Below are positions 8,812 through 40,107 of a DNA stretch of 64,000 nucleotides, piece by piece. A program made the position numbers and the translations under genes. How positions within the stretch are numbered: position 1 is the stretch's first letter; every line of letters begins with the position of its first letter. A model generated the notes under the pieces. It was not told the DNA's origin. It was given only the letters and a program-made list of their open reading frames with translations, and searched no databases. Origin of the DNA: Flavobacterium sediminilitoris (lineage in GTDB: Bacteria; Bacteroidota; Bacteroidia; Flavobacteriales; Flavobacteriaceae); assembly GCF_023008245.1 (NCBI RefSeq), contig NZ_CP090145.1, positions 2,232,001 to 2,296,000 of the forward strand. The letters run 5' to 3'.

Positions 8812-8870
8812 CAAAATAAATAGCAATGTGGCCAGAGCTATTATTTATTAATAATTAAAATGTAAACCTT

Positions 8871-8912
8871 ATGAAAACAAAACCGATTTTATTTAGTACA
8901 GAAATGGTGCAA
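8871..8912 (+). pseudogene. 5' end of a phage gene cut by the cassette array
   Basis: The frame opens MKTKPILFSTEMVQ, which I recognise as the start of a widespread phage protein family whose members usually continue with an Ala-Ile-Leu..Gly-Arg-Lys-Thr-x-Thr-Arg-Arg type segment. Here the frame runs straight into the first cassette after codon 14 (8910-8912) and stops at 8930. The rest of the gene is not found after the array. The family match is from memory. Confidence 0.55.
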
Positions 8913-8931
8913 TTATGTGGCGTTAATTAAA

Positions 8932-9099
8932 ATGGCAAAAGAACGATATTCCATAAGATTTGATAAAAAAACGAACCTTTATAATATTTTTTTATCGGGA
9001 TTTGTACCAATGTATTGTGCTACATACGACACACGGCAAGAGTGCGAGGAGCATATTAAAAACCAAAAAAAATATTATAAATCTCTTAATGCCACATAA
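8932..9099 (+). CDS. Cassette 1 protein, unknown
   Basis: This 55-residue basic protein (MAKERYSIRFDKKTNLYNI...) is the only gene of cassette 1. The ATG at 8932 is preferred to a GTG at 8917, which lies in the cassette core. The beta-strand pattern followed by a helix (YDTRQECEEHIKNQKKYYKSL) suggests a small compact fold like those of unknown cassette proteins. Its TAA stop (9097-9099) is part of the attC inverse core. Confidence 0.6.
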   Translation: MAKERYSIRFDKKTNLYNIFLSGFVPMYCATYDTRQECEEHIKNQKKYYKSLNAT

Positions 9100-9153
9100 C
9101 GGTGTGCATATGGCACGTATCCCGAAGGGTATGGGCTATATGCGATGTTGTAC
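9091..9153 (+). repeat. attC-like site 1 (end of cassette 1)
   Basis: The inverse core ACATAAC (9094-9100) and core GTTGTAC (9147-9153) flank an imperfect hairpin. Bases 9106-9123 pair with 9127-9143 through GCATAT..CCC/GGG..ATATGC, with one bulged T (9120), one mismatch (9115/9134) and a GAA loop. Bulged bases on one strand are typical of attC sites. Confidence 0.75.
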
Positions 9154-9190
9154 ATCTGTATGGCGGACTTAACCCACAAACTTTGATTAA

Positions 9191-10357
9191 ATGAACGACA
9201 GTAGTAATAATATTTTTTTGAGCGATGGCAAAAATGCCGCCACAAGCGGCAAACTAACTCACGGCTCTTTGTTTAGCGGAATAGGTGGATTTGACCTTGC
9301 GGCTGAATGGATGGGCTGGGAGAATGTATTTCATTGTGAATGGAATGAGTTTGGCCAACGAATACTCAAATACTACTGGCCTAAAGCAATATCTTATGAA
9401 GACATTACCAAAACAGACTTCTCTATTCACAGAGGAAAAATCGACATACTTACAGGAGGATTCCCCTGCCAACCGTATTCATCAGCAGGTAAAAGACTTG
9501 GTAAGGAAGACGATAGACATCTCTGGCCGGAAATGCTTAGAGCAATTCGAGAGATTCAGCCCAAGTACATCGTGGGAGAGAATGTTTATGGACTCACTAA
9601 TTGGAATGGGGGATTGGTTTTCAACGAGGTGCAAGTTGACTTGGAAAATGAAGGGTACAAAGTACAACCGTGTATTCTTCCAGCTTGTGCCGTCAACGCT
9701 CCCCATCGAAGAGATAGAGTTTGGTTTGTGGCCTACTCCGACAAGTGTACAGCGGGACCACCCCGAACGAGTGGAGAAACTGAAAGCGACTGGGGCAAAA
9801 ACAATGATGAGCAGAGCAGCAGGAGAAAACAGACCGAACAGCGTACTGGATGCAGCAATGTTTTACGGTCTGATACAGACGCCAACCACAATAGAACGAG
9901 CCGAACCGCCCGAAAAAATGAGAGAACGAGCGGAGAAAAACGGCTACAAGAACGGAACGAAGTACAACAGCTTAAAAAGCCAAATACTTTACGACCCGAA
10001 AATCCAGAGCTTTCTACCAACACCGAACACAAGCGACAACAGGAACAGGGGCAACCCGAACGACCCTTGCATACAAAAGAGAATAGAGAATGGAAAGCAA
10101 GTTGGGCTTACGATGATGGTAGATGGCCAACTCAATCCCCAATTTGTAGCGGAGATGATGGGCTTTCCAACCAACTGGACGGAATTACCTTTCCAAAATG
10201 GAGGCAGGAATCAATAAAGGCTTACGGGAATGCGATTGTACCGCAAGTGGCCTATCAGATATTCAAAGCTCTAATGATTACGGAATCAAAAGCGAGGGAA
10301 GAAAAAAATATTATTACGGGCGATATGGACGAACCTATCCAAAAGACGGGAACTTAG
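9191..10357 (+). CDS. dcm: C5-cytosine DNA methyltransferase (cassette 2)
   Basis: The 388-residue enzyme carries the classic m5C motifs in order: FSGIGGFDLA (28-37, AdoMet), GGFPCQPYS with catalytic Cys93, GENV (129-132), PHRRDRVWFVA, and GNAIVPQVAYQI near the C-terminus. It methylates C5 of cytosine. A polar, low-complexity stretch of about 130 residues (about 180-310) lies where the target-recognition region would be. A second frame is open under most of the gene. It is the only gene of cassette 2 and has higher G+C than neighbours. No restriction nuclease is adjacent, so it may be an orphan protective methylase. Confidence 0.9.
   Translation: MNDSSNNIFLSDGKNAATSGKLTHGSLFSGIGGFDLAAEWMGWENVFHCEWNEFGQRILKYYWPKAISYEDITKTDFSIHRGKIDILTGGFPCQPYSSAGKRLGKEDDRHLWPEMLRAIREIQPKYIVGENVYGLTNWNGGLVFNEVQVDLENEGYKVQPCILPACAVNAPHRRDRVWFVAYSDKCTAGPPRTSGETESDWGKNNDEQSSRRKQTEQRTGCSNVLRSDTDANHNRTSRTARKNERTSGEKRLQERNEVQQLKKPNTLRPENPELSTNTEHKRQQEQGQPERPLHTKENREWKASWAYDDGRWPTQSPICSGDDGLSNQLDGITFPKWRQESIKAYGNAIVPQVAYQIFKALMITESKAREEKNIITGDMDEPIQKTGT
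9285..10217 (+). CDS. Overlapping +1-frame protein inside the methyltransferase gene
   Basis: A 310-codon frame, one base off from the methyltransferase, is open across 80% of it. From about residue 95 it reads STSWERMFMDSL, LTWKMKGTKYNRVFFQL, FGLWPTPTS, several LPTPNTSD-like repeats, and LNPQFVAEMMGFPTNWTEL near the end. To my recollection these match a protein type found with phage cytosine methyltransferases. The first 90 residues look less convincing, so the true start may be internal. The two products would share the DNA. Expression is not shown. Confidence 0.5.
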   Translation: MDLTLRLNGWAGRMYFIVNGMSLANEYSNTTGLKQYLMKTLPKQTSLFTEEKSTYLQEDSPANRIHQQVKDLVRKTIDISGRKCLEQFERFSPSTSWERMFMDSLIGMGDWFSTRCKLTWKMKGTKYNRVFFQLVPSTLPIEEIEFGLWPTPTSVQRDHPERVEKLKATGAKTMMSRAAGENRPNSVLDAAMFYGLIQTPTTIERAEPPEKMRERAEKNGYKNGTKYNSLKSQILYDPKIQSFLPTPNTSDNRNRGNPNDPCIQKRIENGKQVGLTMMVDGQLNPQFVAEMMGFPTNWTELPFQNGGRNQ

Positions 10358-10366
10358 CCATATTGT

Positions 10367-10475
10367 GTACAACGTGACGCAACTATGCGTGGTTTTTCGG
10401 ATAGGTATAAAACCATATTCCGGATAAGCCCAAATTAAACACAATGCCGAAAATCCCGCATAATTGCTGTTATGC
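10367..10475 (+). repeat. attC-like site 2 (end of cassette 2)
   Basis: The inverse core GTACAAC (10367-10373) and core GTTATGC (10469-10475) flank a long stem. Bases 10379-10400 pair with 10447-10467 (GCAA, TATGCG, GG and TTTTCGG against their complements) with one bulged T (10390) and two mismatches. A 46-nt variable terminal loop (10401-10446) closes it. Confidence 0.8.
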
Positions 10476-10500
10476 GTTCGGCTTTTTAACACCAAACAAA

Positions 10501-10740
10501 ATGGATTTACAAATTATCTATTCGCTTTTTAGCGATTCAATTAAAAAACAATTGAAAAATCACGGTTTAAAATTCGACAAAGAAGAGGTTAAACTTATTC
10601 AAGAACTTTCTTTTGCAAATATGAATTTACAATTTCACAAAATTATTTCAGAAACGGAAGCTGAAGAAATTCATAAAAAAATACACAAGCGACTTCTTAA
10701 ACATATTGATAAGCATAATGTTGCTCAAGCTGACGCATAA
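10501..10740 (+). CDS. Cassette 3 protein, unknown
   Basis: This 79-residue, mostly helical protein (MDLQIIYSLFSDSIKKQLKNHG...) has a His/Lys-rich C-terminal half (HKKIHKRLLKHIDKH). The ATG at 10501 is 31 bp after the cassette start; upstream in-frame codons fall in attC site 2. Its TAA stop overlaps the inverse core of attC site 3. Function is unknown. Confidence 0.6.
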   Translation: MDLQIIYSLFSDSIKKQLKNHGLKFDKEEVKLIQELSFANMNLQFHKIISETEAEEIHKKIHKRLLKHIDKHNVAQADA

Positions 10741-10831
10741 CGGATTACGGCTATGAATTGTTGCCGATTAAAACACAATTCTAATTAAGCACAAGCCACA
10801 GTTAGGCAATAATTTATAGCCTTTGTTATGT
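10735..10831 (+). repeat. attC-like site 3 (end of cassette 3)
   Basis: The inverse core GCATAAC (10735-10741) and core GTTATGT (10825-10831) flank a 17-pair stem: GGCTATGAATTGTTGCC (10749-10765) pairs with 10805-10821, only two pairs being G-T. The terminal loop is 39 nt. Confidence 0.8.
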
Positions 10832-10858
10832 GGCGAAGCGAACTGTTAATTTTTTATT

Positions 10859-11227
10859 ATGATATACTCAATGCCTATCGAAAAATTTCCCAATACGGAA
10901 CAATATTTAGAATGCCATACTTACCAAGACGAAAATGACTTTGACTGGAAAATAGCGAGGGTTCAAAATGGTTTTTTTGTAGCTTATTTTGGCGACTCTT
11001 ACTTTAAAGACAAGTACTTTGATTTAGAAGTAAACGGACAAAGCAAATTATTACTAAACTCTGGATGCTTTTTTATACAATGTACAGACTTTGAAACTTT
11101 TTACGAATTTAGAACCATTTTGAAAGAGGGATGGACTGATGATATATGGGAAAGTATTGGGGAATTTTTAAGCGAAAGGTTAGCAAATGATGACGGGCTT
11201 ATGGAATGCGAAATCGTAAAAAATTAA
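10859..11227 (+). CDS. Cassette 4 protein, unknown
   Basis: This 122-residue acidic protein has alternating beta and helix segments (DWKIARVQNGFFVAYFGDS, FIQCTDFETFYEFRTIL). I recognise no family. It lies 28 bp after the cassette start and ends just before an inverse core at 11232. Its size and orphan nature resemble typical integron cassette products. Confidence 0.6.
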   Translation: MIYSMPIEKFPNTEQYLECHTYQDENDFDWKIARVQNGFFVAYFGDSYFKDKYFDLEVNGQSKLLLNSGCFFIQCTDFETFYEFRTILKEGWTDDIWESIGEFLSERLANDDGLMECEIVKN

Positions 11228-11231
11228 TTGC

Positions 11232-11262
11232 ACATAACTACTATATGTAAAAATCGTATGTA
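11232..11262 (+). repeat. Partial attC-like site at the array end
   Basis: The inverse core ACATAAC (11232-11238) matches the leading core of cassette 4, but no clear GTTRTRY core or long stem follows; only ACATA/TATGT (11232-11236 with 11244-11248) can pair. The site looks truncated, at the junction with the recombinase gene. Confidence 0.5.
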
Positions 11263-11290
11263 AAGACCAACAAACTTAATACCTAAGCCT

Positions 11291-12094
11291 ATGAATATCG
11301 GAAAGTATGTACAAATGTATTCCGAAGATTTGAAGTTGAAAAACTATGCTAAGAATACGATTGAAAACTATTGTAGCCAAGTAAGATTATTTTTGGAACA
11401 TTTTAATAATGTGGCTACAAAGCCTTCTGAAATATCAGAAAAACAAATAAAAGAATGGTTACTTTTGTCTAAATCAATTAACGGCAGAAAACATAGAATT
11501 TCTGCTGTTAAATTGTTTTATAAATTAACAGGTAAGCAACCTTTAAAATTTAAGCATATTGAATATCCAAGATCAGAAAAAAAACTTCCAAAAATAATAG
11601 ATAAAGATTTTCTACTGTATAAAATTTCAAAAATTCAAAATAAAAAACATAAAGCAATTATTTCTTTAGCTTATTCAACAGGAATGAGAGTTTCAGAAGT
11701 TTGTAATTTACTTCTTGAAGATATCGATAGCAAAAGAATGATTATTAATATTCGCCAATCTAAAGGAAGGAAAGATAGAATTGTAGCTTTGTCTGAAAAT
11801 ATTTTGGAAATACTTCGAGAATATTTTAAAGAATTCAAACCAAAAGAATATTTATTTAACGGACAATTCAATTTAAAGTATTCTCAAACAAGTTGCAATC
11901 AAATTGTGAAGAAGTATCTTGGTAAAGAATATCATTTTCATTTGCTTCGACATTCTAATGCAACTGCACTATTAGAAGCAGGAACAGACATTAGAATTAT
12001 CCAGAAGCATCTTGGGCATTCTAGTAGCAAAACAACTGAAATATACACCCATGTAAGTACTAATATCATTCAAAGAATGTCTTTACCAATATAA
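11291..12094 (+). CDS. Tyrosine recombinase next to the cassette array
   Basis: The 267-residue recombinase has an N-terminal SAM-like core-binding domain (about 1-85) and a catalytic domain with Arg133 (GMRVSEV), Lys158 (QSKGRKDR), His217 and Arg220 (HLLRH), His243 (LGHSS) and nucleophile Tyr252. All six catalytic positions are present. It resembles compact XerC/D-like enzymes. The extra IntI-specific segment between the Lys and His-x-x-Arg motifs is absent (only about 55 residues there). It is co-directional with the cassettes and starts 52 bp after the last inverse core. It is distinct from the phage integrase at 38732. Confidence 0.85.
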   Translation: MNIGKYVQMYSEDLKLKNYAKNTIENYCSQVRLFLEHFNNVATKPSEISEKQIKEWLLLSKSINGRKHRISAVKLFYKLTGKQPLKFKHIEYPRSEKKLPKIIDKDFLLYKISKIQNKKHKAIISLAYSTGMRVSEVCNLLLEDIDSKRMIINIRQSKGRKDRIVALSENILEILREYFKEFKPKEYLFNGQFNLKYSQTSCNQIVKKYLGKEYHFHLLRHSNATALLEAGTDIRIIQKHLGHSSSKTTEIYTHVSTNIIQRMSLPI

Positions 12095-12206: not shown

Positions 12207-12386
12207 ATGAAATACAATGAGTTTTTTAAGTTAGCCAAGCGCAACGGTTGGCAACTGCTACGACAGGGCAAAGGAAGCCATGAGATTTGGATTAAAGAAA
12301 TCAAAACAGTAGTAATTCCTAATCACGGGTCAAAAGAAATGCCCACAGGACTAGAAAAAAGTTTAAGAAAAGAAATGGGGTTGTAA
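12207..12386 (+). CDS. hicA: HicA-family mRNA interferase toxin
   Basis: The 59-residue protein matches HicA: a dsRNA-binding-like fold with KRNGWQLLRQGKGSHEIW (catalytic His in the GSH motif, about residue 25) and VVIPNHGSKEMPTGLEKSLRKEMG. HicA cleaves mRNA when free of HicB. It lies 36 bp before hicB behind a palindromic promoter. The pair could stabilise the prophage or give defence by growth arrest. Confidence 0.88.
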   Translation: MKYNEFFKLAKRNGWQLLRQGKGSHEIWIKEIKTVVIPNHGSKEMPTGLEKSLRKEMGL

Positions 12387-12422
12387 AACCTCATTTCTTA
12401 AACAATTAAAAATTAAAAAATA

Positions 12423-12812
12423 ATGAATGAAATAAAAATTATAATCGAAAAAAGTAAAGATTCATTTGGAGCTTATTCAGAAAATGTACCTGGTATTTTT
12501 GGAGCTGGAGACACAGCTGAAGAATGTAAACAATCTATTTTGGATGCTGTTGAAACTTTAAAAGGCTTAAAAGCTTGTCCTAAAGAATTATTAGGAGATT
12601 ATGTTATCAGTTATCGATTCGATACAATCTCTCTTTTAAATTACTACAAAGGAATTTTTACTAATTCGGCATTAGAAAAAATGACAGGGATTAATCAGAA
12701 ACAGATACAACATTACACAACTGGACATAGAAAGCCACGACCTGAACAACGTAAAAAAATAGAAAAGGCTTTTCACTCTTTAGGTCATGAACTTTTAGCT
12801 GTAGAACTATAG
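12423..12812 (+). CDS. hicB: HicB-family antitoxin
   Basis: The 129-residue antitoxin has the partial RNase H-like HicB fold (IIIEKSKDSFGAYSENVPGIFGAGDTAEE) followed by a C-terminal helix-turn-helix (about 75-120: NSALEKMTGINQKQIQHYTTG). It neutralises HicA and probably represses the operon through the palindrome at 12159-12176. A strong terminator follows 32 bp downstream, so hicAB is an isolated two-gene unit inside the prophage. Confidence 0.9.
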   Translation: MNEIKIIIEKSKDSFGAYSENVPGIFGAGDTAEECKQSILDAVETLKGLKACPKELLGDYVISYRFDTISLLNYYKGIFTNSALEKMTGINQKQIQHYTTGHRKPRPEQRKKIEKAFHSLGHELLAVEL

Positions 12813-12911: not shown

Positions 12912-13216
12912 ACCCCTATATTTTAAAAAAAATTTGCAAATTTTTTTTTTAGCATAAAAATAAGGGGTTTTTGCTCCACAAGTTCCACAATTCCACAATT
13001 AGTATTCTATAATAGATATAATATATTGTATATATTTAATAATCAAAGTATTAAGTAATAAAATGACTTGTGGAACTTTTTGAAAAAAACGTGGACTTTT
13101 TGTGGAACTTGTGGAGCTTTTTTTTTAAGTTCCTACAAAAAATTAATGTTTCCACAAGTTCCAACGCTTTTCGGAACTTTAAAACGTTGATTTTCAGTGT
13201 TGTGGAACTTTGGAAC
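12912..13216. other. Iteron-rich region, candidate phage replication origin
   Basis: The gene-free 12868-13317 stretch holds about a dozen copies of a 9-mer close to TTGTGGAAC or its complement. Examples: 12982, 12990, 13148 (reverse); 13068, 13100, 13109, 13200, 13209 (forward). An 18-bp perfect inverted repeat (12973-12990 with 13100-13117) flanks an AT-only core of about 45 bp. A long hairpin closed by ACCCCT/AGGGGT (12912-12917 with 12963-12968) lies to the left. The 9-mer shares the TCCACA part of DnaA boxes. I see no ORF here. A regulatory cluster is the main alternative. Confidence 0.5.
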
Positions 13217-36850: not shown

Positions 36851-38752
36851 ATGAGCATCATTAAAATTTTTGCAAATAATATCGAACTTAATTTTCAAAA
36901 AGACACTCTTAGATTAAAAAAAGAGAATAATTCCTTGTCTTCAGAATTTAAAGTAACTCATTCAACAGCACCTTTTCTAATTATAGAAAATGAAAATACA
37001 AAGAAAGCTCTTGGTTCTTCAGATATAACCTCCATCAATAAAAAGAAAATAATTCCAGTAACAGTACTCGAACTTGGTGTAAAATACTATGGAGAACTAC
37101 AACAATTATCTGTTTTAAATGGATTTAGAAAATGCAACTTAAAGTATAATTCTGAACTATTAACGGTAATTAATAAAAAGATTTCAGAATTTATGCCAAT
37201 TGTATCTGTTATTCCAGATGAAACAGATCCAGAACCCTTTTCTGAAATATCAGATTCTGTGTTAACAGGCGTTTCTTATTGGGAAACATATCCTTTACCT
37301 TTTTTAGATAAATCTTTTCCAGAAATTAGATGGCAGTTTCCTTCCATGTATTGGAAGAATAAATTTGGAACAGATTTAGAACTAGATGATCCTTGGTATC
37401 TATTTCAAAATTATATAAATCTTTTCGATATTGATGAAACTCTATCTGGAGTATTTGTTGAAAACACTTATGATGTAGATATTGTCAATTCAATAATTTC
37501 AGTAGAACAAAAGAATGTTGCTGCACCACAAGTTTATTTATTATCACCTCTATTTTACATTTTTGAATCTATTAATTGGAAAATAAAAGGAGATTTTGTA
37601 AACCATGAATTAGTTAAGAAAATTTTATTCTTTTCTAAAAATAATAATATGTGCAAAACTAATTTATACCTTCCAACAACCGATGTTATTTTTGATCAGC
37701 CTACATGGTTTGAGTTTAGTTCTGGTCCATATTTAAATTATAGAAAAAATGAAAATTTCACAGGATTAGCTCCAGGTAATTATATCGTTTTCTACTATTT
37801 TGAATTACAGCAAGACTTATCAGTTTCAGATGCTTCAAAAAAAATTAAACTGCAAATATTTGGAGATATAACTATTACTGCTGTAGATGTTTGGAAAAGA
37901 AGTTTTGATGATGTTAATGGTGGAGATAATATTGTTCAAGGAACATTTGAAGTAGCTGTTACAGGAGATTTGAAATTTCATTATTTCAATCCACAACAAC
38001 AAATGCCAGTTGATTATTACATTAGATTTACACCAGATATTTCTAAAGAGTATACTTTCATGCATCCAACACTAAATCTTGGCAGATTCTTACCCGAATG
38101 GAGTGTTGGTTCCTACATTAATAATCTAAAAAATTTGTTTAATCTTGATGTAGATATAGATGATTTTAAAAAAACCATTACCTTAAATTTTAATGAAAAC
38201 ATTGATATTAATGAAAAACCTGTAATTATTGAAAAATCAATGGTAAGGTCTTCTTATGATTTAGCAGCTAATTCTTCCTTTGTCCTAAAATATGCGAATA
38301 ATGAAGATGCATCTTTGTTTATATCAATTAATGATATAGCAGTAAGTTCATTTACAAAAGAATTACATAATGGATTTAAATTAGTTCCTAATAATGAAGT
38401 AACTGCCAATTTATCTGAAGATTTAGAAAACAAAGAAGGTACTGGGTTAATGATTTATGCTCCAATAAATGCTCCTTATATTTCAAATACAACTGAAGAA
38501 GGATATAGCTTAGAAATGGAAGGAAATAAAGGAATACATGATTCTTTTTGGAAAAAATGGTTGAAATTTAGACTTAGTGCTTCTTCTTGTGAAATTGTCG
38601 GAGCTTTTACAGAACCAGAAATAGCTAGAATTTATAAAGCCAAAGCAATTTACTTAGACAATCAAAGATATAGATTGGTTTCTATAGAATTTACTGAAAC
38701 ATCTAACAAGATTAATGAACTTAAAATGATTTTAGAGAGCATTAATATTTAA
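36851..38752 (+). CDS. Tail tip/baseplate protein (Tal-like position)
   Basis: The 633-residue protein lies one base after the Dit-like gene. The N-terminal part (about 1-110) resembles hub domains; the middle is aromatic-rich (FPEIRWQFPSMYWKNKFG). It likely forms the tail tip. It is the last rightward phage gene, and its end overlaps the integrase's 3' end by 21 bp. Confidence 0.65.
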   Translation: MSIIKIFANNIELNFQKDTLRLKKENNSLSSEFKVTHSTAPFLIIENENTKKALGSSDITSINKKKIIPVTVLELGVKYYGELQQLSVLNGFRKCNLKYNSELLTVINKKISEFMPIVSVIPDETDPEPFSEISDSVLTGVSYWETYPLPFLDKSFPEIRWQFPSMYWKNKFGTDLELDDPWYLFQNYINLFDIDETLSGVFVENTYDVDIVNSIISVEQKNVAAPQVYLLSPLFYIFESINWKIKGDFVNHELVKKILFFSKNNNMCKTNLYLPTTDVIFDQPTWFEFSSGPYLNYRKNENFTGLAPGNYIVFYYFELQQDLSVSDASKKIKLQIFGDITITAVDVWKRSFDDVNGGDNIVQGTFEVAVTGDLKFHYFNPQQQMPVDYYIRFTPDISKEYTFMHPTLNLGRFLPEWSVGSYINNLKNLFNLDVDIDDFKKTITLNFNENIDINEKPVIIEKSMVRSSYDLAANSSFVLKYANNEDASLFISINDIAVSSFTKELHNGFKLVPNNEVTANLSEDLENKEGTGLMIYAPINAPYISNTTEEGYSLEMEGNKGIHDSFWKKWLKFRLSASSCEIVGAFTEPEIARIYKAKAIYLDNQRYRLVSIEFTETSNKINELKMILESINI

Positions 38753-39940
38753 AATATCATCAAGATTAAACATTTGTTCGTTTGATATCGATTCTACAAT
38801 GTGTACATAAATCATTGTTTCTTCAATCTTAGAATGCCCTAGTATTTTTTGCAAAACTTCTATTCTTCCTCCAGATATCAAGAAATTAGTAGCAAATGTG
38901 TGTCTGGCCACATGGAAAGACACACGTTTTTTTATACCAGTAATTTTACAAATATCTTTCAAAGTTCTGTTTATGTATTCTCCTGTGAATTTGTTATTGA
39001 AAATGAGATTCCCTTCTAAGAATTTCTTTGCTGAATTGTTTAAGGTTATACGTTGCAATTTTTCAGTTTTTTGAGCCACAAAAACAATATAGTCACCAAT
39101 AATATTTTCTTTGTCAAACCGCAAAATATCTGATATTCTTAAACCAGAGAAGCATGAAAATAAAAACATAGCAATTACTGTTTTATGAGTTTCGTTAATG
39201 AATTCAGAATTATAGTATTTATACAATTGGGTTATTTCTAATGCATCAAGAAATGTTCTATTTCCTTTAAAAGAAGGTGTTTTTATATCATCAAAAGATA
39301 AAGGTGTTCTTATACCTCTTTTTTGAGCTATATGTAAGTATTTCTTAAAGTTTTTTATAAAAGATGCTATTGTGTTTTTACCGTTTTTTTTAGTTGTTCT
39401 AAGCCATTTCAAAATATCTTCGAAAAACTCTTCATTTAATTCATGAAAATAAATTGTCTCCTTGTATTCTTTGAGTTTAGAAAATGCAGATCGTTGTTGT
39501 CTGAGTGTAGAATCTTTAATTATTCCTTTTTGCCTTACAAGTTCTTCATCCCAAAACTGAATAAAATCTATCCATGATGTAGGATTAGTTAGTTCACGAA
39601 CTAAATTTTCCATGGTCAAGGCCATTCCTGTTAATCTATAATTTAATTCTATTTCATGAATTTGAGAAAGCAATTTTTCAATTATGATATTATAATCCTT
39701 GTAATTTTTATTTGAGGTCTTTACTCTTTGTTTTAGATCATCAAATTCAGATGGTTTTACTGAAATGTTTACAGGAAACATTTTTTTATTTGAATTAAGA
39801 AAACATTGTACATAGATAGCACAAGTACCATCAACTCTTATATGGTCCTTTTTTATTTTAACTTTATATGAAAGCTTCCCATTCATTTTTATTGGGTAGT
39901 TAATTGGGTAGTTATTAATTAAAATTTTATTTTCTAACAT
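38732..39940 (-). CDS. int: Phage integrase (tyrosine recombinase)
   Basis: The 402-residue enzyme has an arm-binding N-terminus, a SAM-like core-binding domain (about 105-205) and a catalytic domain with Arg in CFSGLRISDILRF, His-x-x-Arg in FHVARHTF, His in LGHSKIEE and nucleophile Tyr in MIYVHI. It integrates and excises the phage at tRNA-Arg. It lies 93 bp from the right attachment core. An internal ATG at 39886 (MNGKLSYKVKIKKD) may be the real start. It differs from the recombinase at 11291. Confidence 0.92.
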   Translation of the reverse strand: MLENKILINNYPINYPIKMNGKLSYKVKIKKDHIRVDGTCAIYVQCFLNSNKKMFPVNISVKPSEFDDLKQRVKTSNKNYKDYNIIIEKLLSQIHEIELNYRLTGMALTMENLVRELTNPTSWIDFIQFWDEELVRQKGIIKDSTLRQQRSAFSKLKEYKETIYFHELNEEFFEDILKWLRTTKKNGKNTIASFIKNFKKYLHIAQKRGIRTPLSFDDIKTPSFKGNRTFLDALEITQLYKYYNSEFINETHKTVIAMFLFSCFSGLRISDILRFDKENIIGDYIVFVAQKTEKLQRITLNNSAKKFLEGNLIFNNKFTGEYINRTLKDICKITGIKKRVSFHVARHTFATNFLISGGRIEVLQKILGHSKIEETMIYVHIVESISNEQMFNLDDILNINAL

Positions 39941-40032: not shown

Positions 40033-40045
40033 GTGACCTCGACAG
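40033..40045. other. Prophage attachment site, right (13-bp core)
   Basis: GTGACCTCGACAG is the 3' end of the tRNA-Arg gene (acceptor stem and part of the T stem) and repeats at 1570-1582. Integration kept the tRNA intact. Confidence 0.9.
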
Positions 40046-40107
40046 GATTCAAACCTGTAACCTTCTGAGCCGTAATCAGATGCGCTATTCAGTTGCGCCA
40101 CGAGGCC
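40034..40107 (-). tRNA. tRNA-Arg (anticodon ACG)
   Basis: The cloverleaf is complete: acceptor GGCCTCG/CGAGGTC with one G-T pair, D stem GCGC/GCGC, anticodon stem TCTGA/TCAGA with loop TTACGGC (anticodon ACG), and T stem ACAGG/CCTGT. CCA is not encoded. Position 19 is A and position 56 is T instead of the usual G and C, which keeps the tertiary pair. It is the integration site of the prophage. Confidence 0.95.

Follow-up and report, generated by a model that had tools for sequence, protein, structure and literature searches.

The window analyzed here is a 64-kb stretch of the complete 3.91-Mb chromosome of Flavobacterium sediminilitoris (contig NZ_CP090145.1, positions 2,232,001 to 2,296,000), and coordinates are those of the window unless prefixed otherwise. 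Within a prophage, it holds what is, with a probability that we put at about 0.92, a complete phage-borne integron belonging to a phage-dedicated lineage with reversed cassettes. The element spans 8913-11290 and comprises three complete cassettes, a distal remnant and an attI-like site, after which its recombinase is encoded at 11291-12094 (Table 1). The attachment sites, the attI, the recombinase, the reversed linkage and, in relatives, the turnover of cassettes are documented at the level of sequence. Integrons are regarded as bacterial (and archaeal) platforms, and in phages they are known mainly as captured pieces. A first-pass annotation, made from the letters of the DNA alone, had placed cassettes with attC-like sites inside a Bacteroidota prophage, which proved right; its four small genes on one strand, with three long imperfect hairpins between them, were confirmed. 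It had treated the array as an orphan, but an attI-like site and a recombinase follow directly, beyond the span that it had described.

Searches for relatives of the recombinase yielded 83 viral stretches (80 kept; 46-85% identity) and 102 genome stretches (80 kept; 34-51% identity, except for locus L089 at 59%). A protein search returned at least 7920 matches; among the matches listed, the names were XerD or tyrosine-type recombinase/integrase, and the three relatives named by organism were all from Flavobacterium. After removal of redundancy 69 viral loci remained, and in 49 of them the DNA upstream of the recombinase extended for 2 kb or more. Every one of these 49 carried attC-like sites there (two or more in 39, three or more in 27, a single site in ten, with a maximum of 11). 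In these loci 176 upstream sites had one polarity and 7 the other (268 kb), and 4 sites lay downstream (258 kb); Markov shuffles of the upstream DNA of the 49 loci gave 1.6 and 2.8 sites per set. The arrangement is thus common in viral contigs and no rarity; the first-pass annotation had noted that cassettes are seldom reported from phages. The counts of upstream sites, matching boxes, linkage and attI exclude redundant contigs, by slightly differing lists, and the counts of the direction of open reading frames (ORFs) include them. The largest related viral contig was 362 kb. A terminase (phrog_2) was found in only 9 of 31 viral records, so most contigs are taken as viral on the authority of IMG/VR.

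Sites were first detected with a scanner written for this analysis. A covariance model, CM R1, was then built from 57 of 62 candidate sites of 82-98 nucleotides (nt) from viral contigs, with the sites of the window excluded from training; its E-values are rough, as calibration was short. In the 64-kb window CM R1 matched sites B and C, both on the minus strand, and its sole further match had an E-value of 4.6. The array has attC hairpin sites with R''/R' boxes, two of the three recognized by covariance model and the third by scanner and fold only. When folded as single-stranded DNA and compared with dinucleotide shuffles, the gene strand gave z-scores of -1.9 (A), -3.0 (B) and -2.4 (C), and the other strand 0.15, -2.7 and -0.9. 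All three sites beat the shuffles on the gene strand. In attC polarity this is the bottom strand, and at every site its z-score is the better of the two, which would agree with recombination of a folded bottom strand. Read in attC polarity, the cores are AACA...CGTT, like those of the bacterial-type integron of Shewanella phage M16-3, and, by eye, G.T pairs interrupt the stems of site C and of many related sites at set places. Rfam at its gathering threshold reported only a tRNA-Arg in the window and no family at the hairpins, which is neutral for either reading. A further scanner site at 13070-13164 consisted of GTGGAAC-rich repeats, was not attC-like and was dropped by eye.

The boxes at the unit ends were compared over the 10 nt outside GTT and AAC. 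At least 6 were identical in 69% of 133 viral units when the comparison was made across one gene; across one hairpin the figure was 23% of 203, and for random pairs 15%. Matching boxes that flank each gene are what is predicted by a circle closed at the core. In the window the start of each unit matches its own end, as had been noted in the first pass: over 13 of 14 nt in the first unit (arms 8913-8926/9086-9099), 8 nt in the second and fourth, and, by eye, 9 nt in the third. The proposed G^TT core does not hold at the outermost point, where base 8912, before the first TT, is A and not G.

The hairpins might instead be terminators, regulatory RNAs or miniature mobile repeats that separate ordinary phage genes, with the recombinase an unrelated lysogeny or Xer enzyme. 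Promoter-like motifs in a few loops and the names of the relatives in databases (XerD or integrase) would suit such an explanation, which we consider highly improbable because it accounts neither for the matching boxes on the two sides of a gene, nor for an attI that is conserved while its left neighbor varies, nor for the exact cassette differences at AAC between isolates (the last two described below). Of 202 sites, 17 had the motif TAnnTTTG in the attC loop on the gene strand and 26 had it on the other strand, with 12.35 expected by shuffling; a longer loop pattern with TTG occurred 7 and 6 times, respectively, with 1.25 expected. There was no strand bias, and no promoter within the attC loop is claimed.

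The polarity of the cassettes was deduced from linkage. Viral sites with similar hairpins formed 179 pairs, and for each pair the block of shared sequence (from blast) was scored as passing the site when it continued for 15 nt or more. It passed on the right alone in 52 pairs, on the left alone in 0, on both sides in 3 and on neither side in 124; in the 52 right-only pairs its left limit lay a median of 2 nt within the site (range, 10 inside to 14 outside). The corresponding counts for 58 pairs of sites from genome contigs were left 10, right 3, both 2 and neither 43. The longest ORF between adjacent sites opposed attC polarity in 137 of 141 viral intervals, but of 47 genome intervals 40 had it running with that polarity; L089, which has a recombinase and layout of the phage type, accounts for three of the seven exceptions. 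Phage genes thus do not lie upstream of their attC reading away from attI. As controls, the bacterial-type integron of Shewanella phage M16-3 had 8 sites of one polarity, 14 genes in the same direction and a divergent integrase, and that of Vibrio phage p16 had two of three genes in the same direction and one reversed. In phage arrays, judged from these counts, the hairpin belongs to the following gene, with the exchange placed at AAC in the gene sense. From the linkage and ORF-direction counts it follows that phage cassettes hold their genes reversed, and the order of integrase, attI and array is still the classical divergent one.

In the classical polarity each gene would be followed by its own attC, the order that the first-pass annotation had assumed and that the linkage and ORF directions in related phage arrays invert. 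The matching boxes at unit starts and ends agree with it, although they are expected under both readings; the linkage of 52 to 0 for the following gene, isolate differences that consist of a hairpin and the following gene, and the minus strand of the covariance matches make it extremely improbable. Two other linkage tests were set aside: linkage by shared gene families left only six pairs after redundancy removal and was too weak, and a first test with a loose identity rule (at least 8 of 10 matching; right 31, left 19 of 137 pairs) was not decisive, the question being settled by the blast blocks.

The attI-like site was recognized by the pattern AAC N3-6 TATAT, with AAC 45-62 nt before the start of the recombinase, which was present in 63 of 64 tested loci versus 6% of random 220-nt stretches from the same loci. 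For this test, starts were extrapolated for partly matched recombinases, and L060, L069, L080, L082, L083 and L086, which had a match without a start, were left out. The sequence to the left of the AAC varies between loci. Such a conserved site beside the integrase appears to receive cassettes, since different ones stand at it in L034-L037 and in the Polaribacter phage Freya. The viral contigs L034, L035, L036 and L037 were compared over the attI and 700 nt from the start of the recombinase gene, where they are 100% identical; identity begins 55 nt before the gene, at AAC, and the L035/L037 block extends to 90 nt at 98.6%. Three different cassettes abut this AAC, L034 and L036 carrying the same one.

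Differences by single cassettes were found among the Freya records (MT732463-MT732472; L243-L251), of which isolates 1, 2, 5, 6, 8, 9 and 10 of ten were compared and 3, 4 and 7, with lengths as those of 2 and 6, were left out. In the shared part Freya_1, _8 and _9 equal Freya_10, whereas _2 differs by 4 bases, _5 by 2, and _6 by a few bases and one gap. Freya_10 versus Freya_9 differ by one 307-nt cassette at the attI beside the integrase, between identical flanks of 44,823 and 3,793 nt, the junction lying within both records; Freya_6 versus Freya_5 differ by another, 472-nt cassette at the same place. Each of these differences consists of a hairpin and the following gene. Freya_5 lacks a 3.2-kb block that has AAC at both ends, with the junction within the record. 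Freya_1, _2 and _8 also begin and end at AAC points, but the join falls there at the ends of the records and may reflect how the assembly was cut. CM R1 gave no match on three Freya stretches, where the sites were recognized by matching boxes and exact breakpoints. Among relatives, cassettes therefore move, by sequence, as units through site-specific exchange, and in the prophage of the window they presumably do likewise. The proposal of the first pass that the phage carries and spreads a cassette array draws its support from these relatives. Base 8913, at which the first pass would have compared related prophages for cassettes, is where the array meets a broken phage gene; new cassettes enter at the recombinase end, as seen in Freya. 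The Freya isolates can be read as having gained and lost cassettes in series at a single site. In the main text of the Freya paper (PMC8776804), as far as accessible, the integrase is read as a sign of temperate potential and the words integron and cassette are absent; the single-cassette differences, already in public records, apparently go unrecognized there.

The recombinase has the catalytic residues R133, K158, H217, R220, H243 and Y252, invariant in 22 aligned enzymes; its best solved relatives were 4a8e and 5hxy. In the alignment the spacing from K158 to H217 is 59 residues. It is 59-60 in 11 other phage-type enzymes, 64 in L019, Leef and two chromosomal Bacteroidota enzymes, and 107 in Vibrio IntIA (the scripted values are without Ingeline and five rows of the window's own group, the window included). 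The IntI additional domain near patch III is absent from the window enzyme in this alignment. Six rows with stops in their translations were left out of the tree, four of them (L174, L175, L177 and L179) probably owing to translation of the wrong strand. In the tree of 106 proteins the window enzyme, 42 viral enzymes and that of L089 formed one group of 44 (support, 100/89). IntI formed a separate group of 14 (100/100) and chromosomal Bacteroidota enzymes fell in others; Ingeline, Freya and Leef were on long branches outside the group of 44, where their placement is unsure. XerA, XerC and XerD resolve chromosome dimers at dif; they belong to the same sequence family as the window enzyme, which is linked instead to attC arrays. 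Of 395 genomes sampled from the phylum, 105 carried enzymes above the IntI cut-off; a strong match was found in 107 genomes, one of them labeled as of the host's class, with the class make-up of the 395 unstated.

Alternatively, the phage could have picked up a fragment of a bacterial chromosomal integron, as Qi et al. (2023) describe for Vibrio phages. The host chromosome does have an array of related sites (C1:2,533-2,547 kb), and CM R1 finds chromosomal sites in Bacteroidota. Pick-up is nevertheless very improbable: the recombinases of phages group in a clade of 44 rows (100/89) that is separate from the chromosomal enzymes, and genes are reversed relative to attC in 137/141 viral but 7/47 genome intervals (three of these seven in L089), the array of the host being classical. 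The host array (L192, C1:2530000-2549999) has about 11 attC-like sites and genes in the classical direction; CM R1 gave four matches at C1:2,536-2,548 kb (E 0.001 to 0.57), where the scanner lists 11, and none of the listed recombinase relatives in the host genome lay at this array. Bacteroidia chromosomal arrays with XerA-like recombinases share the attC family (CM R1) and, in two aligned enzymes, the lack of the additional domain; they differ in that the array is 3' of the recombinase, the genes are classical and the recombinases are mostly 38-51% identical. Some relatives are named site-specific tyrosine recombinase/integron integrase. Phage units are short (median, 422 bp), and chromosomal Bacteroidia units have a median of 919 bp.

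The phage-dedicated element shares with sedentary chromosomal and class 1 integrons the hairpin attC with AACA...CGTT cores, an attI by the integrase, a divergent array and insertion at attI; it is unlike them in being phage-borne, in its reversed genes and in a phage recombinase without the IntI additional domain. Among 10,705 phage genomes, Qi et al. (2023; PMC9892861) reported 17 clusters that lack an integrase, besides 3 complete integrons and one In0 whose integrases are of bacterial type. Sites of attC type in phages and DNA methyltransferase cassettes are common to those integrons and the present ones, which differ in having reversed cassettes and recombinases that form a phage clade, with an attI of their own. 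In the open-licence PMC literature, as far as covered, that was the sole study devoted to phage integrons, and no account of reversed cassettes, of a phage-specific integrase or of turnover in isolates was found there; a description elsewhere is possible.

Sites were also sought in isolated phages. Leef_1 has three scanner sites, in phage polarity and upstream of the integrase, one of which is a weak CM R1 match (E 0.03). Cellulophaga phage phi17:1 has two CM R1 matches (E 1.5e-6 and 8e-3), and no integrase is among its annotated features. Polaribacter phage P12002L has three (E 9e-4, 0.07 and 0.8), adjoining methyltransferase genes that run against the sites. Two P12002L sites, possibly among those matched by CM R1, were tested with IntI1 by Qi et al. 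(2023; PMC9892861), and one recombined. Outside Bacteroidota, covariance or scanner sites near recombinases of this kind were seen at L123, L132 and L164, in metagenome-assembled genomes of Nitrospirota and Nitrospinota.

Several observations weigh against a complete phage integron in the window. CM R1 missed site A, which is of the 60-nt short type; of the covariance search that the first-pass annotation had suggested, B and C thus came through and A did not. The recombinase scores under both curated cut-offs, with 181.8 bits versus 220 for NF040815 (XerA) and 140 bits versus 265 for TIGR02249 (IntI). The Freya recombinase, on whose records much of the turnover was seen, is 33% identical to that of the window and lies outside the clade of 44 rows. 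The distal end of the array has no hairpin, which the integron model does not predict, and the cut phage gene (8911) is joined there to an R' box; this junction may reflect a deletion or an off-site exchange. Finally, no close relative of the prophage, with or without the array, was found by its primase among 249 genomes of the genus, the nearest other being G081 at 50% identity.

By the proposed mechanism, the dedicated tyrosine recombinase (11291-12094) would recombine folded attC hairpins, probably with folded single strands as substrate, with the attI at 11236-11290. A cassette would be a circle of hairpin and gene; exchange at AAC would insert it at attI, and it could later be excised. 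The reversed genes would run toward the recombinase and along the phage genes, and phage transcription would express them. In 58 of 64 loci the main coding strand downstream of the recombinase is also the one that carries recombinase and cassettes (opposite in 3, mixed in 3), so phage transcription could read the cassettes. Through the array the phage may be able to swap accessory genes, DNA methyltransferases for example.

It seems likely that phages, at least those of Bacteroidota, own an integron lineage and a cassette pool, set apart by reversed genes and, at long sites, by start codons in the loops; that the IntI additional domain is unneeded for attC recombination; and that some integrases on which a temperate call for flavobacterial phages rests (Freya, Leef and possibly Ingeline) are integron recombinases. 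If so, viruses would run a widespread gene-exchange market of their own, with DNA methyltransferases among the goods. Enzymes without the additional domain would offer a natural test of what an integrase requires, and the orientation of cassette genes would seem to be selectable. Polaribacter phage Freya would provide a cultivated system with single-cassette differences, and an 'integrase' alone would be no proof that a phage is temperate.

The cargo was surveyed in 103 cassette proteins, 4 from the window and 99 of 124 viral-type units. Few Pfam families were represented: DNA methyltransferases of three types (the C5 type being the window's own), RNA ligase, GNAT acetyltransferase and domains of unknown function. 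PHROGs added an HNH endonuclease and a phosphoheptose isomerase, and a defence library mainly methyltransferase models (25 families shown). Of 119 long sites, 69 have a start codon in the loop that opens an ORF of at least 50 amino acids (aa) through the right arm. The same was seen at 1 of 61 medium sites, at none of 22 short ones and at 4 of 83 chromosomal sites read antisense. In viral loci L009-L088, at many sites of 105-160 nt, the right arm would encode the N-terminus of the protein of the following gene; by eye, several long-site loops seem to encode similar peptides.

The prophage has primase, DNA methyltransferase, head protease, terminase and tape-measure genes (PHROGs), and the array and a second tyrosine recombinase are placed between its primase region and its structural genes. 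Since the prophage has a separate integrase beside a tRNA-Arg gene, the recombinase at 11291 may be dispensable for lysogeny. Similarity to gp049 of Flavobacterium phage laban6-1 ends where the distal end of the array begins, and no remainder of the gp049 homologue was found in the 64-kb window by tblastn.

Table 1. Features of the integron-like element and its surroundings in the window.
Feature	Position	Strand	Description
Interrupted phage gene, 5' end	8871..8911	+	Homologue of Flavobacterium phage laban6-1 gp049 (there annotated PF12961); 90.5% match over window 8870-8911
Distal remnant	8913..9099	+	R' box lacking a hairpin, then 55-aa gene (8932-9099) and R'' box; unit start and end match at 13/14 nt
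attC-like site A	9094..9153	- (opposite to genes)	Short type, 60 nt; found by scanner; fold z -1.9 on gene strand
Cassette 1	9100..10372	+	Hairpin A, then C5 cytosine DNA methyltransferase gene 9191-10357 (PF00145, E 2e-48); limits deduced from linkage rule
attC-like site B	10367..10475	-	CM R1 32 bits, E 2.4e-3
Cassette 2	10373..10740	+	Hairpin B, then 98-aa gene of unknown function; ORF 10444-10740 starts within hairpin B
attC-like site C	10735..10831	-	CM R1 62 bits, E 1.1e-8; 76% identity over 91 nt to site in Cellulophaga phage phi17:1
Cassette 3	10741..11237	+	Hairpin C, then 122-aa gene of unknown function (10859-11227)
attI-like site	11236..11290	-	AAC, then conserved TACTATATGTAAA and further sequence to recombinase start; proposed entry point for new cassettes
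Tyrosine recombinase	11291..12094	+	267 aa, PF00589; proposed integron integrase
Separate tyrosine recombinase (integrase)	38732-39940		With arm-binding domain; adjoins tRNA-Arg 40033-40107

Directly 3' of the recombinase, at 12207-12812, lie a HicA-type toxin gene (PF07927, E 4e-16) and then a helix-turn-helix gene (PF01381, just under the cut-off), which by their position would form a toxin-antitoxin pair. Elsewhere in the host genome a second relative of the recombinase was seen (L002; G000 C1:3001692-3002297), with 40% identity over residues 63-260 and a frame of 238 aa that is perhaps shortened.

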